NCBI GenBank assembly: GCA_905233525.1 | Contig: CAJOEW010000022.1 | Span: 1,729-43,476 of the forward strand | DNA: 41,748 nucleotides | Origin: an uncultured Synergistales bacterium | GTDB taxonomy: Bacteria; Synergistota; Synergistia; Synergistales; Aminobacteriaceae | Direction: 5' to 3' | The notes under the pieces: model-generated | What the model was told of the DNA's origin: nothing | Seen by the model: only the letters and a program-made list of their open reading frames with translations | The model's database searches: none | Translations under genes and position numbers: made by a program | In this document: piece after piece, positions 7,283 to 34,511 of the stretch | Layout of the letters: the number at the start of each line of letters is the position of its first letter | Position numbering within the stretch: the stretch's first letter is position 1

Positions 7283-8782
7283 TTAGCCGTCGCCGAATAA
7301 TCCTAAAATATCTGAAAGATCGACGTTATAATTTTCTTCTTCCTCGCGTTGTTTAAGTGCTTGTAATTCGTCTTTGAGTTTCTTTTGAGCTTTTACTATG
7401 CTTAACGCCTGATCAAGACATTTAATCGCAGTATTTATATAGCCGTGTTCCTGTAAAATCACAGCCGCGTTCGTTATAAAACCGCCTAAGAACGCACCAA
7501 ATTTTTTTTCTTTCGCAGACTCTGGAGTATCGCCCTCGTCGCCGTTAGTGAATTTATTTGCAAATTGTACAGCGAATTTTTCAACTTGCCACGATAATAA
7601 ATCTTTACTGATAAGTCCCAACTCATCAAGCATTTTGTCAAATTGAGTCTTAGTCGAAATCGCATCAACATATCTTTCGCCGGAAGTGAAATCGTATTTT
7701 AAAACTAATCCGCCTTCGTCTGTTTTATTATCTTGATTCGCTTGAGTGTTTATATTTTCTTGTTCATGCTCTGAATTTTCCTGAGTGTCTTCATTTTCTT
7801 GCAACGGTTCTGACTCTTCCTGTACGTTTTCGTTTTCTTGCACCGATTCTGATTCTTCTTTAACGCTTTCATTTTCTTGCGCCGGCTCTGATTCTTCCTG
7901 TACGTTTTCATTTTCCTGTGCTGGCTCTGAAATTTCTTGTGCACTATTATTTTCTTGCATTAGTTCCGAATCTTCTTGCATGTTTTCGTTTTCTTGGACG
8001 CTTTCAAATTCTTGTTCTTGTTCTTGAATTTCTTGTATAACTTCGATCTCAACTTCAGGATCAGTCGCTAATCCAGTCTCAATAATTTCCTGTACAGTGT
8101 CATTATTATTTGTTTTTTCGTTATTTTGAGGCTCGCTTATATTTTCATCGATCGCAGGCTCTAATTCTTGAATTGAATTTTCTTGCACGTTTTCAATTTC
8201 TTGCGCAAGTTCTGAATTCACCTGCTCATTCTCGATTTCTTGCACAAGCTCCAAACTTTCTTGCTCGTCCTCAATTTCCTGTGCAAACTCTGAATTTTCC
8301 TGCTCGCTTTCAATTTCCTGCACAAGCTCCGAATTTTCCTGCTCGCTTTCAAAATTTTGCTCGGATTCTAATTCTTCCTGTATGTTCTCAATATCTGATA
8401 CAGGCTCCAAAATTTCCACACCGTCAGGAAGCACAGCGACAGGCTCAAGAACTTCAAGCTCTCCTAAAAGATCGCCGTCAAGCCCTGAAGCCTGCGCACG
8501 CTCTAATTTTTCAAGATTATTTTTTATATTATCGCCTTCGTCAGCTCGCTGTAGTATTACTCTCTCTGAAACACCACCGCCCAAATCAACCGGAACATCA
8601 AGAACAACCGTCTCAACTTCCACGACTGGCGACTCCTCCGAAATATTCATAGGAACTTCAAGCGTAATGCGTTCAGTTTCCATAGCAAGCTCCTCAATTT
8701 CAGGAACTGGCTCAGATAATTTTATATCTTCAAGATCATTATCATTATTATCAAGAGGCGCGGCTGTTTTCAGAAAAGGCAT
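7283..8782 (-). CDS. Acidic Glu/Gln-rich tandem-repeat protein, 499 aa
   Basis: Family not recognised. The chain has an acidic N-terminal region (1-148), a block of four 13-residue repeats of the type ENSELVQEIESEQ (about 149-200), an acidic linker, a second block of seven 13-residue repeats of the type QENENVQEESEPA (about 263-353), and a non-repetitive C-terminal domain of about 140 residues (from GGLVLKYDFTSGERY). That domain is helical, has a TPR-like stretch (YINTAIKCLDQALSIV), and ends in a basic/acidic helix and ILGLFGDG. There is no signal peptide or TM segment. The ATG lies 3 nt after the htpG stop with AGGTGAT as Shine-Dalgarno, so it belongs to the htpG transcription unit. The repeats are probably an extended or coiled linker. 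Confidence 0.85.
   Translation of the reverse strand: MPFLKTAAPLDNNDNDLEDIKLSEPVPEIEELAMETERITLEVPMNISEESPVVEVETVVLDVPVDLGGGVSERVILQRADEGDNIKNNLEKLERAQASGLDGDLLGELEVLEPVAVLPDGVEILEPVSDIENIQEELESEQNFESEQENSELVQEIESEQENSEFAQEIEDEQESLELVQEIENEQVNSELAQEIENVQENSIQELEPAIDENISEPQNNEKTNNNDTVQEIIETGLATDPEVEIEVIQEIQEQEQEFESVQENENMQEDSELMQENNSAQEISEPAQENENVQEESEPAQENESVKEESESVQENENVQEESEPLQENEDTQENSEHEQENINTQANQDNKTDEGGLVLKYDFTSGERYVDAISTKTQFDKMLDELGLISKDLLSWQVEKFAVQFANKFTNGDEGDTPESAKEKKFGAFLGGFITNAAVILQEHGYINTAIKCLDQALSIVKAQKKLKDELQALKQREEEENYNVDLSDILGLFGDG
7724..7996 (-). repeat. 39-bp coding tandem repeat, block B (7 copies)
   Basis: Seven consecutive 13-codon units (QENxxxQExSExx) encode residues 263-353 of the acidic repeat protein. 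The period is exactly 39 bp and copies differ at several positions, so they are degenerate rather than freshly expanded. Length changes would stay in frame. Confidence 0.8.
8183..8338 (-). repeat. 39-bp coding tandem repeat, block A (4 copies)
   Basis: Four 13-codon units (ENSELVQEIESEQ type) encode residues 149-200. The period is the same as block B but the consensus differs, suggesting independent amplification or old divergence. Confidence 0.75.
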
Positions 8783-19006: not shown

Positions 19007-19962
19007 ATGCTGACACTTGGAATTGAAACGAGCTGTGATGATTCCGGCGTGGCTTTGCTTCGTGATGGTAAAGAAGTTATCTGCGAATATTTATCGAGTC
19101 AAATAAAAGATCATTCGAAATTCGGCGGAGTCATTCCGGAATTTGCAGCGCGTAAACATTTAGAGAATTTATTGCCATTGATTGACGCGGCTGTAAAAAA
19201 TCTTGCTGACGGTCAAAAAATAGATTTAAATTGATGGTCGGAGTTCAAACAGCGATCGCATTGTCGCAAGTCTGGAAAATTCCTTTAATCGGAGTGAATC
19301 ATTTAGAAGGCCATTTATTTGCGCCTTTAATTGAAAATCAAGATTTAAAGCCTCCGTTCTTATCCGTAATAATTTCGGGCGGACATACAGAAATAATACT
19401 TGTAAAAAATTTCGGCGAGTATGAATTTTTAGGAGGCACCCGCGATGATGCAGCAGGAGAAGCTTATGACAAGGCGGCGAAAATTTTAGGACTTGAATAT
19501 CCAGGAGGACCCATTATCGATAAATTAGCGAGCGAGGGAAATTCTGAGGCGTTTAATTTTCCAGTTCCTTTAAAAAATACGCATGAGATTGAATTTAGCT
19601 TCAGCGGTTTAAAAACGGCTGTATTATGGCAGATAAAAAAACTTAACGCGAATAATTTACAGATACCAATTAAAGATATATGCGCGTCGTTTCAAAAAGC
19701 AGTTATTGAAGCTTTAATGAGTAAAATAAAATTGGCGGTGCGTCTGACAGGAGTTAAGAATGTTGCGATTTCCGGCGGTGTTGCTGCTAATAACGGATTA
19801 CGCGAAAAATTAAAAGCTCAAAAGAATTTTCAAGCATATATCCCTAAAATATCGCGCTGTACAGATAATGCAGTAATGATAGCCTTAGCTGGCTATAACG
19901 CATATTCACGAGGAGTCCGCACGGAAAATATTTCGCCAGATCCGTCGTTGCATGAGCTTTGA
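19007..19962 (+). pseudogene. tsaD: tsaD (t6A threonylcarbamoyltransferase) with internal deletion and frameshift
   Basis: TsaD installs the threonylcarbamoyl group of t6A37 on ANN-decoding tRNAs. Frame one (19007-19234) gives the N-terminus, MLTLGIETSCDDSGVALL through SKFGGVIPEFAARKHL to QKIDLN and a stop. The second frame (from 19231) resumes at MVGVQTAIAL with the metal-binding NHLEGH, ISGGHTE, DDAAGEAYDKAAK, FSFSGLK and SGGVAANNGLR. Between them about 12 residues are missing, those normally reading IAVTxGPGLxGxL, a loss of roughly 34 bp that also shifts the frame. The rest is well preserved, so the lesion is recent or is an assembly error. Two separate proteins forming a split enzyme is unlikely because the lost loop is conserved. 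Confidence 0.85.
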
Positions 19963-19988
19963 TATTTTCATTAGGAGGATTTTATTTT

Positions 19989-21208
19989 ATGATACATAGT
20001 AATGAGGTTGACAAAATCAATAATTTGCGCTCACAATTGATCAGAGATCAGAGATCAGAGATCAGAGATCAGAGATCAGAGATCAGAGCCTTCATCATGC
20101 TTTAAATTTTGTTGAAAGATGGGATAATGAACGCGCTTACACCTGGTCAGGAACTCCGCACGGTTTATTTACAGAGCTGTCGAATTTTACAAGAGTCAAT
20201 GACGTACCGTTATCAAGAAATTTTTTTGTGAGGTCTGCTTTTTTTCTGCAGCGTGTATACGATAAGCTTACACACTCGTTTAATTTTGGGCTTCTCGACG
20301 CTAAATTAAGTGAGCTGCAATTAAAACGCTCTGAAAAAATTGATCCTGAAGGCCCTTGCTTGATGTTCTCAGCTTATGAGACAAAATATCTTGCAAACAC
20401 TTACATGTACCAGGATATGACAGTGGATTATGTGTATAGAATGTGGAAATCAAAATCAGATTTGAGCAAATTCACGCCGTTGCCTCTTAAAACAAAAGAG
20501 CGTGTAGTTTTAAAGCGCCTCGAAAAAAATAAACGTGTTAATGAAAATTGCCGCGGCTTGTTCACAATGTCAAAATGGCTTGCGAATGACATGATCGAAA
20601 ATATGGGCTTACCTCCTGAAAAAATTCACTATGTCGGCGGAGGCTGTAATATTGATACTAATCTGATCGACACGTCAAAAAAGAATGGACGCAGATTTTT
20701 ATTTGTCGGCAAAGATTTTGAACGTAAAGGCGGAATAACTGTCATAGAGGCTTTTAAAATCTTGCGTGAGAAATATAACGACATAGAATTATATATAGTC
20801 GGCTCAAAAGATATTCCGGACAATTTAAAAAATATCAGCGGCGTTTATAATCCTGGTTTATTGCCGTATAAAGAAGTTGCGGAATTATTTAACTTGTGTG
20901 ATTTTTTTGTGCTGCCTTCACAATTTGAGGCTTACGGCATTGTTTTTGCGGAAGCTTTAATATTTGGTCTGCCTTGCATTGGAAAAAATATTTATGCCAT
21001 GCCGGAATTTATCGAAAATGATTTTAACGGCTATTTAATTAACGATAACGATCCTGAAGAATTATGCTCACGAATGGAACAATTACTACAAGAGCGAGGG
21101 CGGTTAGTTTCAAATGTTCAAAACATGCGCGATGCTTATATAAAAAAATATTCATGGCGCAGTGTTGTTTTAAGAATGCTTGATGTTTTTAGGCGCGACG
21201 GATTTTAA
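19989..21208 (+). CDS. Phase-variable GT4-family glycosyltransferase (OFF in this sequence)
   Basis: ATG at 19989 has a strong Shine-Dalgarno (AGGAGG, 19973-19978, 10-nt spacer). From it, translation enters the GATCAGA repeat tract and stops at 20103 after 38 codons. The frame of the enzyme is open from 20024, reads through the tract and continues (SLHHALNFVERWDNER, TWSGTPHGLFTELSNF) into the glycosyltransferase. One more repeat, or two fewer, joins the start to it and gives 408 aa with eight copies. The C-terminal half is a GT4 GT-B domain: RRFLFVGKDFERKGG, SGVYNPGLLPYKEV, and the donor-site FVLPSQFEAYGIVFAEALIFGLPCI. The likely role is surface polysaccharide synthesis. A GTG at 20228 could restart internally but has no Shine-Dalgarno. 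Confidence 0.85.
20039..20087 (+). repeat. Heptanucleotide simple repeat (GATCAGA)x7
   Basis: Seven perfect, uninterrupted copies (49 bp) begin 50 bp after the start codon of the glycosyltransferase. Seven is 1 modulo 3, so each gain or loss changes the frame. In frame the tract encodes repeats of IRDQRSE. Each unit carries one GATC. Confidence 0.98.
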
Positions 21209-32972: not shown

Positions 32973-34511
32973 TTAGTTCTCCTGTTCTAAAAAATATAAA
33001 GCCATTCTTATCGTAGGCTCATTACCAAAAATTACACGAGCGTTTTCAAGAATCCGTCTAGCGTCATTTTTCAAGCCTTTCCCTCTGTACGAATCAGCAA
33101 GACCAAGCCACGCCCTGACATCATCGCCTTGTAATTGCAGAGCGTCAAAAAAACTTGTAAAAGCGCCGTCGAAATCTTTTTTAATTAAAAAATTACTGCC
33201 TGTTCTAATGAGCGTCTCAAAATCGTATTTGACATCAAGCGGATTTTTTTTAACATTCGCAGAATTTTCAGGATCTAAAGGAATTATTAAGGCCGTTTGA
33301 TTTTCAGGAACGCTTTCAATTTCCTGCGATGTTGTTTGAACGCCGGCAGAATTATTTTTTTCAAGCTCTGTTGATCTCAATCGTTCAAGCTCATTTAAAG
33401 CCGTTTGTCTGTGTTCTGTTTCGTCAGGCGGTAATAATTTTAAATACTCGTTCCAAGCTATATCAGCTGTTTTCATATGGCCGGCATGTTCTGCAGAGCG
33501 AGCGATACCTGTTAAAAATAATATTACATTCGGATAAAGCTTATAACCTTTTTGATATAACTGCGTGGCGGAATCGTAATCGCCTGCTTCAAATAATTTT
33601 GCAGCTCGTGAGTTCAAACCGTCAGGTGAATTTCTTTCAAGCAGCCATAAAGCACCGAACACGCCCATTAAAATTATCAGCATGAACGAGCATAATAATA
33701 TAATTCTTGGCCTGTAAATATTTTTATGAATATCCGGCTCATGTTCTTTTATTTCTGCTGCTCTATTGCGCCTGACCTGTAAAATTTTTTGGAGGCGGTC
33801 TGTAAATTTATTATTGCGTTGTAATTCGTTATCTTCGACATGTGAAATATTATTCGAGCCTGTTATATCGGTCCATAATTCTGTAGGAGGATCCAGATTT
33901 ATATTTTTTCTGTAAGCATTTTCAATATCGATAGAGTCAGAATCATCATAGCGATCATTTTCAGGCGTGTGAATAAATTCTTCGTGAACGTCTTCAATAT
34001 TTTGCGGCTGTTCTTGAATTTGATCGTGTTCAAAATCCTGATCGTCTTGTGAAATATTTTCGTGTTCAACTTCCAGAGGCGAGCGTCCCAAATTTTGATC
34101 ATCCAGCGAAATATTTTCCTGTTTGATTTCCAAATTCGGCTGTTCTGAATTCTGATCATCGCGTGAAATATTTTCCTGTTCAATTTTGATTTGAGAACGT
34201 TCTAAATTTTGATCGTCCTGTGAAATATCTTCGTGTTCAATTTCCAGAGGCGAGCGTCCCAAATCCTGATCGTCTTGTGAAATATTTTCATGCTCGATTT
34301 TTTCAGGTTCGTCTTTAATTTTTTGTTCCGGCGGATTTTCTTTTGAGGGCTTTGTGTAATCTAACTTGCTAAAATCTAGCTGCGGATATGTTTCAGAAAT
34401 TGGAGCGAGCAGCAAAACACCCGTTCCATCAGAATTTTTACCCATATCCTTTTCAGGCTGGGAACTGGTTTTATAATTACCGTTAAGCCAGTCCATTAAA
34501 TCCTGATTCAA
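32973..34511 (-). CDS. Membrane TPR protein with acidic 19-residue repeats
   Basis: 512 aa, family not recognised as a whole. Residues 1-69 are low complexity. Residues 70-164 are five 19-residue repeats of the type LEIEHENISQDDQNLGRSP. A second acidic region runs to 230, a basic stretch (LQVRRNRAAEIK) precedes one TM helix at about 268-291, and the C-terminal 220 residues contain TPR-like repeats (AAKLFEAGDYDSATQLYQKGYKLYP and DFDGAFTSFFDALQLQGDDVRAWLGLAD). Positive charges before the TM put the acidic N-terminus in the cytoplasm and the TPRs outside. The start is TTG with GGGGTGAG upstream. It is the first gene of the operon ending with the S8 peptidase. Confidence 0.85.
   Translation of the reverse strand: MNQDLMDWLNGNYKTSSQPEKDMGKNSDGTGVLLLAPISETYPQLDFSKLDYTKPSKENPPEQKIKDEPEKIEHENISQDDQDLGRSPLEIEHEDISQDDQNLERSQIKIEQENISRDDQNSEQPNLEIKQENISLDDQNLGRSPLEVEHENISQDDQDFEHDQIQEQPQNIEDVHEEFIHTPENDRYDDSDSIDIENAYRKNINLDPPTELWTDITGSNNISHVEDNELQRNNKFTDRLQKILQVRRNRAAEIKEHEPDIHKNIYRPRIILLCSFMLIILMGVFGALWLLERNSPDGLNSRAAKLFEAGDYDSATQLYQKGYKLYPNVILFLTGIARSAEHAGHMKTADIAWNEYLKLLPPDETEHRQTALNELERLRSTELEKNNSAGVQTTSQEIESVPENQTALIIPLDPENSANVKKNPLDVKYDFETLIRTGSNFLIKKDFDGAFTSFFDALQLQGDDVRAWLGLADSYRGKGLKNDARRILENARVIFGNEPTIRMALYFLEQEN
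34020..34304 (-). repeat. 57-bp coding tandem repeat (5 copies)
   Basis: Five head-to-tail 19-codon units encode residues 70-164 of the TPR membrane protein. Copies share HENISQDDQ-type cores with several substitutions. Changes in copy number would keep the frame. Confidence 0.85.

Follow-up and report, generated by a model that had tools for sequence, protein, structure and literature searches.

A probable repeat-switched glycosyltransferase gene, predicted to be OFF, and the common leader of a probable genus-wide set of surface-polysaccharide switches in Synergistota

Main finding

The window, a stretch of 41,748 nucleotides from an uncultured Synergistales bacterium, contains a gene for a GT4-family glycosyltransferase whose reading frame depends on the copy number of a heptanucleotide, GATCAGA. 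The comparisons below indicate that this is very probably a contingency gene in the OFF phase, switched by slippage, and that it is one of many repeat-switched genes for surface polysaccharide across the genus that have a leader in common. The window gene would fall into class I, where the enzyme is joined directly to the array; class II arrays sit in a short leader ORF. The original prediction of a contingency gene in the OFF state is supported, but its single-gene framing was too small.

The glycosyltransferase gene and its array

The features of the locus are as follows.

19007-19962, plus strand: tsaD, the upstream neighbour, outside the switch itself; its 3' slot holds other repeat-switched genes in relatives
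19973-19978, plus strand: Shine-Dalgarno sequence AGGAGG, 10 nt before the ATG at 19989 (from the sequence)
19989-20105, plus strand: ORF of the present OFF phase, from the ATG for 38 codons through the array to a stop (from translation)
20008-20013, plus strand: -35-like TTGACA of the conserved leader element, with GAGG (20004-20007) in front; the element precedes nearly all arrays of the genus
20032-20037, plus strand: -10-like CACAAT after a spacer of 18, ending 1 nt before the array; two mismatches to TTGACA/TATAAT in all
20039-20088, plus strand: perfect heptanucleotide array, (GATCAGA)7.1 (TRF, three sense frames)
20090-21208, plus strand: intact frame of a GT4-family glycosyltransferase with 372 codons beyond the array; 8 or 5 copies would select it (Pfam, orthologues L021 and L022)

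Seven perfect units behind a well-initiated start codon had been predicted, and TRF reports 7.1 copies of period 7 over 50 nt with a 100% match, 50 nt downstream of an ATG that is preceded by AGGAGG. Translation of the current ATG frame (frame 1) gives 38 codons, MIHSNEVDKINNLRSQLIRDQRSEIRDQRSEIRAFIML*, with the stop ending at 20105, exactly as foreseen. Frame 3 is open across the GT4 enzyme to 21208, and there is no ATG, GTG or TTG between the last upstream stop and the array. The enzyme frame is offset by +2 relative to the ATG frame; therefore, 8 copies (+7 nt) or 5 copies (-14 nt) restore the frame, which bears out the arithmetic of one extra unit or two fewer. The array is free of stop codons in all three sense frames, and no terminator was found in the 150 nt 3' of it.

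The assignment to GT4 is confirmed by a Glycos_transf_1 domain (PF00534; E 4.2e-28, residues 197-337) in Pfam, and the enzyme is similar in sequence to solved GT4 enzymes. A search with the GT4 protein against the genome contig collection returned no relative. The original prediction had overlooked the element TTGACA-N18-CACAAT (20008-20037) just 5' of the array. The window leader is unlike the common form described below in two respects: the start codon precedes TTGACA, and CACAAT stands in place of TATAAT. Two coding minisatellites, with units of 39 and 57 bp (multiples of three), occupy 7754-8352 and 34027-34300 of the window, in minus-strand ORFs (7283-8782 and 32973-34511) whose frame length variation would keep.

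Orthologues and selection

Among 60 relatives, close orthologues were found in two species of the same genus, G033 (56% identity) and G031 (50%). The G033 orthologue has (AGACAGC)11.9 at the start of the enzyme and is read in frame from its ATG for 406 codons, i.e. it is ON, and this is the in-frame form that had been expected among orthologues. The G031 orthologue has (CTTCGGG)2.3 at the same place and is out of frame, i.e. off. Both carry other heptamers at the homologous site, so it is the length of seven and the location that persist, while the units themselves have been exchanged. Mismatches between the window genome (G000) and G033 are 0.35, 0.27 and 0.60 at codon positions 1, 2 and 3, respectively, so that third positions differ most. 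The accumulated stops and frameshifts that had been named as the mark of decay are absent from the 372 codons. The codon pattern thus points to a gene that is kept and not decaying, as originally proposed.

The tsaD neighbour and its 3' slot

In the tsaD gene (19007-19962), some 23 residues are missing (TsaD 65-87, with VTRGPGLMGS among them), and there is a frameshift near 19200-19235. tsaD is usually essential, and a second strong tsaD match was not found in this genome; the defect is either an assembly error or a broken copy. Because of this deletion with frameshift in the adjoining gene, a local assembly error is also possible near the window array. The slot directly 3' of tsaD, which holds the GT4 gene here, holds repeat-switched acyltransferases in G002, G003 and G030, and in G012 a TCTGT x 13.4 array stands at a contig start beside tsaD. 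It is one chromosomal slot for different contingency genes.

Repeat arrays in this genome and in sister species

Arrays were taken as perfect, with a period of 4-15, at least 2.8 copies and at least 16 nt, and counts per genome are estimates from pattern searches and sampled stretches. Sampling 245 kb of this genome yielded only six heptamer and three hexamer arrays, and 573 kb of sister species contain 15 heptamer arrays, both samples including stretches picked for holding arrays. No heptamer array was found in 400 kb from other genera of the order. The contrast of 6 in 245 kb with none in 400 kb means that the window array is not due to chance. A further 800 kb of sister species holds 15 period-7 arrays at the same threshold; those with five copies or more carry the leader, and the rest are short (about three copies).

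This genome has GATCAGA arrays at three loci; besides the window array, one lies ahead of a GT2 gene and one at the end of a contig, and these two have a leader sequence in common. The two loci outside the window (C5 and C9), like the other heptamers elsewhere in the genome, had been overlooked by the original prediction. The idea that the species has one repeat unit of its own was abandoned, since units differ both inside a genome and from genome to genome. A small paralogous family is formed by four near-identical leaders on C6, C9, C46 and C58 of G000 (L324, L189, L327 and L328), which carry CGCACAT arrays of 3.4-5.4 copies and, in at least three of the four cases, precede GT8-like sequence. 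Another kind of repeat is seen in G020 (L269-L273), where short TAGGAGT/TAGGAGG arrays (about three copies) contain stops and look like Shine-Dalgarno motifs in tandem.

Contig ends hold at least ten arrays, for example in G000 (C5), G029 (C11 and C23), G010 (C7 and C15) and G033 (C75). They may fit copy-number heterogeneity, and also arrays too long to assemble. The frequency of arrays of 5, 7 or 8 nt at contig ends is far above expectation (L001 at the end of G000 C5, L051/L055, L053/L069, the start of L227, and L161).

The common leader

In its common form the leader consists of a Shine-Dalgarno sequence, TTGACA, a start codon and TATAAT, in this order, followed by an array of 5-, 7- or 8-mers. 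TTGACA, followed after 16-19 nt by a TATAAT-like hexamer that ends 0-8 nt before the array, is present within two mismatches at 15 of 19 arrays, compared with 0.7% of shuffles and one of 186 ordinary gene starts. In an independent later sample, the same limit holds for every array of five or more copies, seven in number. The pattern AGGA-N1..5-TTGACA-N16..18-TATAAT has about 150 exact matches, some of them overlapping, in 37 genomes of the genus, compared with a single match across 24 genomes from other genera and two when the pattern is reversed as a control. Most of the sampled leaders (58 of 68) run directly into a tandem array, compared with 55 of 1246 control TATAAT sites (4%). The arrays behind the 58 leaders comprise 45 heptamers, 12 pentamers and one octamer, with no 4-, 6- or 9-mers. 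By eye, two leaders without an array look like tRNA promoters.

The distinct units are free of stops in the three sense frames in 34 of 34 cases, and in antisense in 23 of 34. The leader start codon mostly lies 10-11 nt after AGGA, and a start codon within range is found in 75% of the leaders as against 39% of shuffled spacers. TATAAT falls into only two frames relative to this start (30 and 11 of 41); the third, never seen, is by our reading the one containing TAA. To judge by these sequence features, the arrays of the genus are translated. A further -10-like element 10-40 nt before AGGA, present in 25 of 35 cases with about five expected, could be the source of the translated transcript. An RNA started at the inner promoter element would have no ribosome-binding site.

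Simple frame switching does not account for a consensus promoter within a translated leader. Possibly, the inner element is a second promoter, a sigma-dependent pause or a destabilising element. A tentative extension of this idea, which we would favour less than its rejection, is a composite cassette in which a consensus sigma70 element is embedded in the translated leader with its -10 ending at the repeat. It might either pause RNA polymerase so that the ribosome catches up, enabling frame-dependent antitermination or coupling, or fire into the repeat and raise its instability, and, with units that keep changing, it would have been put to use again and again at dozens of surface genes in the genus.

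Two classes of loci

Class I, which includes the window gene, has the enzyme immediately behind the array. Class II loci have the array in a short leader ORF, and some 30-135 nt past the array comes the gene's own start codon. At 15 of the 16 class II loci studied, one of the array frames ends -2 to +11 nt from the gene start, most frequently in the form ATGA, compared with 24% of ordinary first genes by chance; in a larger automated set that has some loci in common with the first, 22 of 27 show it. Between array and gene, 9 of the 16 loci (versus 9.8% of controls) have a hairpin with a T-run, and at the loci with a hairpin the remaining frames mostly stop before it.

For loci with an assignable leader start, the ON state is found in 4 of 19 in class I and 7 of 21 in class II (11 of 40 in total), and these calls agree with random phase. 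The genes behind the arrays that are matched in Pfam belong to GT2, GT4, GT8, LicD, Acyl_transf_3, MBOAT, Bac_transf and methyltransferases including FkbM, and such genes are predicted to make or modify surface polysaccharide. At two class II loci Pfam gave no match for the downstream protein. On C75 of G033, GNAT-like, carrier-protein-like and HAD/FkbH-like genes, named by eye only, lie behind arrays.

Proposed mechanism and alternatives

Under the contingency-gene reading, ribosomes would start at the ATG at 19989 and read into the GATCAGA array, and slipped-strand mispairing would add or remove units of 7 nt, so that the frame of the GT4 enzyme would be chosen at random. About one copy number in three would then be ON, and with 7 copies translation would end at 20105. 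At class II loci, one frame would as a rule end on the gene's own start codon and so allow re-initiation; at 9 of the 16 loci, the frame that ends at the gene start would also carry the ribosome across the terminator-like hairpin. In living populations the copy number presumably changes, with slippage as the likely cause, and the GT4 product would be expected to alter a surface glycan.

The alternative that survives best, though it is unlikely, is a transcriptional one, in which TTGACA/TATAAT is a working promoter, the array spans the start site and copy number tunes promoter output or the mRNA, as for the heptamers of Haemophilus influenzae hmw. It draws on the near-consensus -35/-10 directly 5' of the 15 arrays and of all seven in the independent sample, and on the inclusion of tRNA promoters among the other perfect matches to the element. 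However, in class I an RNA starting in the array would be untranslatable, because the N-terminus of the enzyme directly adjoins the array and no start codon separates the two. Further against it are the freedom from sense stops in all units and the matched leader and gene frames of class II. Moreover, the array lies 3' of the -35/-10 element, and therefore its copy number leaves the -35/-10 spacing unchanged.

Much less probable is a plain pseudogene, i.e. a frameshifted glycosyltransferase with an accidental repeat. The sole sequence of the species is OFF and the adjoining tsaD is disrupted, as this alternative would have it, but the open 372 codons with their purifying pattern by codon position, the heptamer arrays that two orthologues, one of them in frame, carry at the corresponding position, and the same leader at about 150 places in sister species all speak against it. 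The least credible alternative is that the array is a useful N-terminal linker, (DQRSEIR)n, and the loss of frame a sequencing or assembly error: heptamers do give 7-residue peptide repeats in every frame and assembly errors are common at repeats, but the same pattern recurs at many loci in many assemblies with about one third ON, the unit and hence the peptide differs between orthologues, and class II arrays are separate from the enzyme altogether.

Implications

If the contingency-gene reading is correct, standardised repeat switches, many per genome, appear to govern the surface-polysaccharide chemistry of an uncultured genus. With dozens of similar switches on surface sugar genes in sister species, the genus seems able to reshuffle its surface by chance. 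Because the leader is stereotyped, such loci can be found by a simple DNA pattern and their ON or OFF state called from the sequence, and they offer many natural examples for testing the interplay of frame, translational coupling and attenuation. They also raise a testable question, namely the reason for a consensus promoter element exactly at the repeat.

Comparison with known systems

Repeat-based phase variation is known mainly in pathogens with small genomes, such as Haemophilus, Neisseria and Campylobacter.

The O-acetyltransferase gene neuO of the CUS-3 prophage of Escherichia coli K1 has an array of the heptanucleotide AAGACTC in its 5' coding region, and gives full-length product only at every third copy number (PMC13001214). 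Likewise, the window gene has a perfect heptamer array soon after its start codon, within the 5' coding region of a frame-set enzyme; the array is free of stops in all frames, every third copy number gives the full-length enzyme, and an orthologue is in frame with 11.9 copies. The neuO product modifies a surface polysaccharide. neuO is, however, one cargo gene of a prophage with one unit, whereas the gene here is a chromosomal glycosyltransferase gene in an unrelated lineage, and its set spans the genus, counts at least 34 units and has a common leader.

In Streptococcus gallolyticus pil1/pil3, pentamer repeats lie in a leader ORF, and the frame decides whether the ribosome gets as far as a terminator hairpin and disrupts it (PMC3894217). 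The class II loci of sister species have the same anatomy as the pil1 attenuator: their repeat lies in a separate short leader ORF, and in 9 of 16 of them a hairpin like an intrinsic terminator stands between repeat and gene. The window gene has neither, its array being fused to the enzyme with no terminator, and pil1 is no model for it. Also, pil1 regulates pili, and the long leader ORF of class II usually ends on the gene start (often ATGA), which adds possible translational coupling.

The lic loci of H. influenzae carry tetramer repeats. The repeat-controlled genes of that species are like those of this genus in acting on the surface, and the genus includes a LicD-family gene (G022). In H. 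influenzae, heptamers are found upstream of hmw1A and hmw2A, in the promoter and outside the coding sequence (PMC2651432). Tetramers dominate there and the hmw copy number acts on the geometry or activity of a promoter ahead of an intact gene, whereas this genus has 5-, 7- and 8-mers, and the window heptamer lies in the coding sequence, with the frame of the gene depending on its copy number.

GATCAGA in four or more copies also occurs in contigs of Acidobacteriaceae, Planctomycetota, Roseiflexaceae, Ignavibacteria and others (L080-L158). Since 60 of 86 such arrays lie outside long ORFs and the promoter element of the leader is present in just 2 of 165 flanks, the unit was dropped as a sign of descent shared with other phyla.

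A literature search turned up neither a description of such a genus-wide leader cassette nor any paper joining Synergistota and phase variation, though such work may exist. Therefore, while heptamer contingency genes (neuO) and repeat-controlled attenuation (pil1) are both known, the genus-wide cassette that brings such switches under one leader appears to be new.
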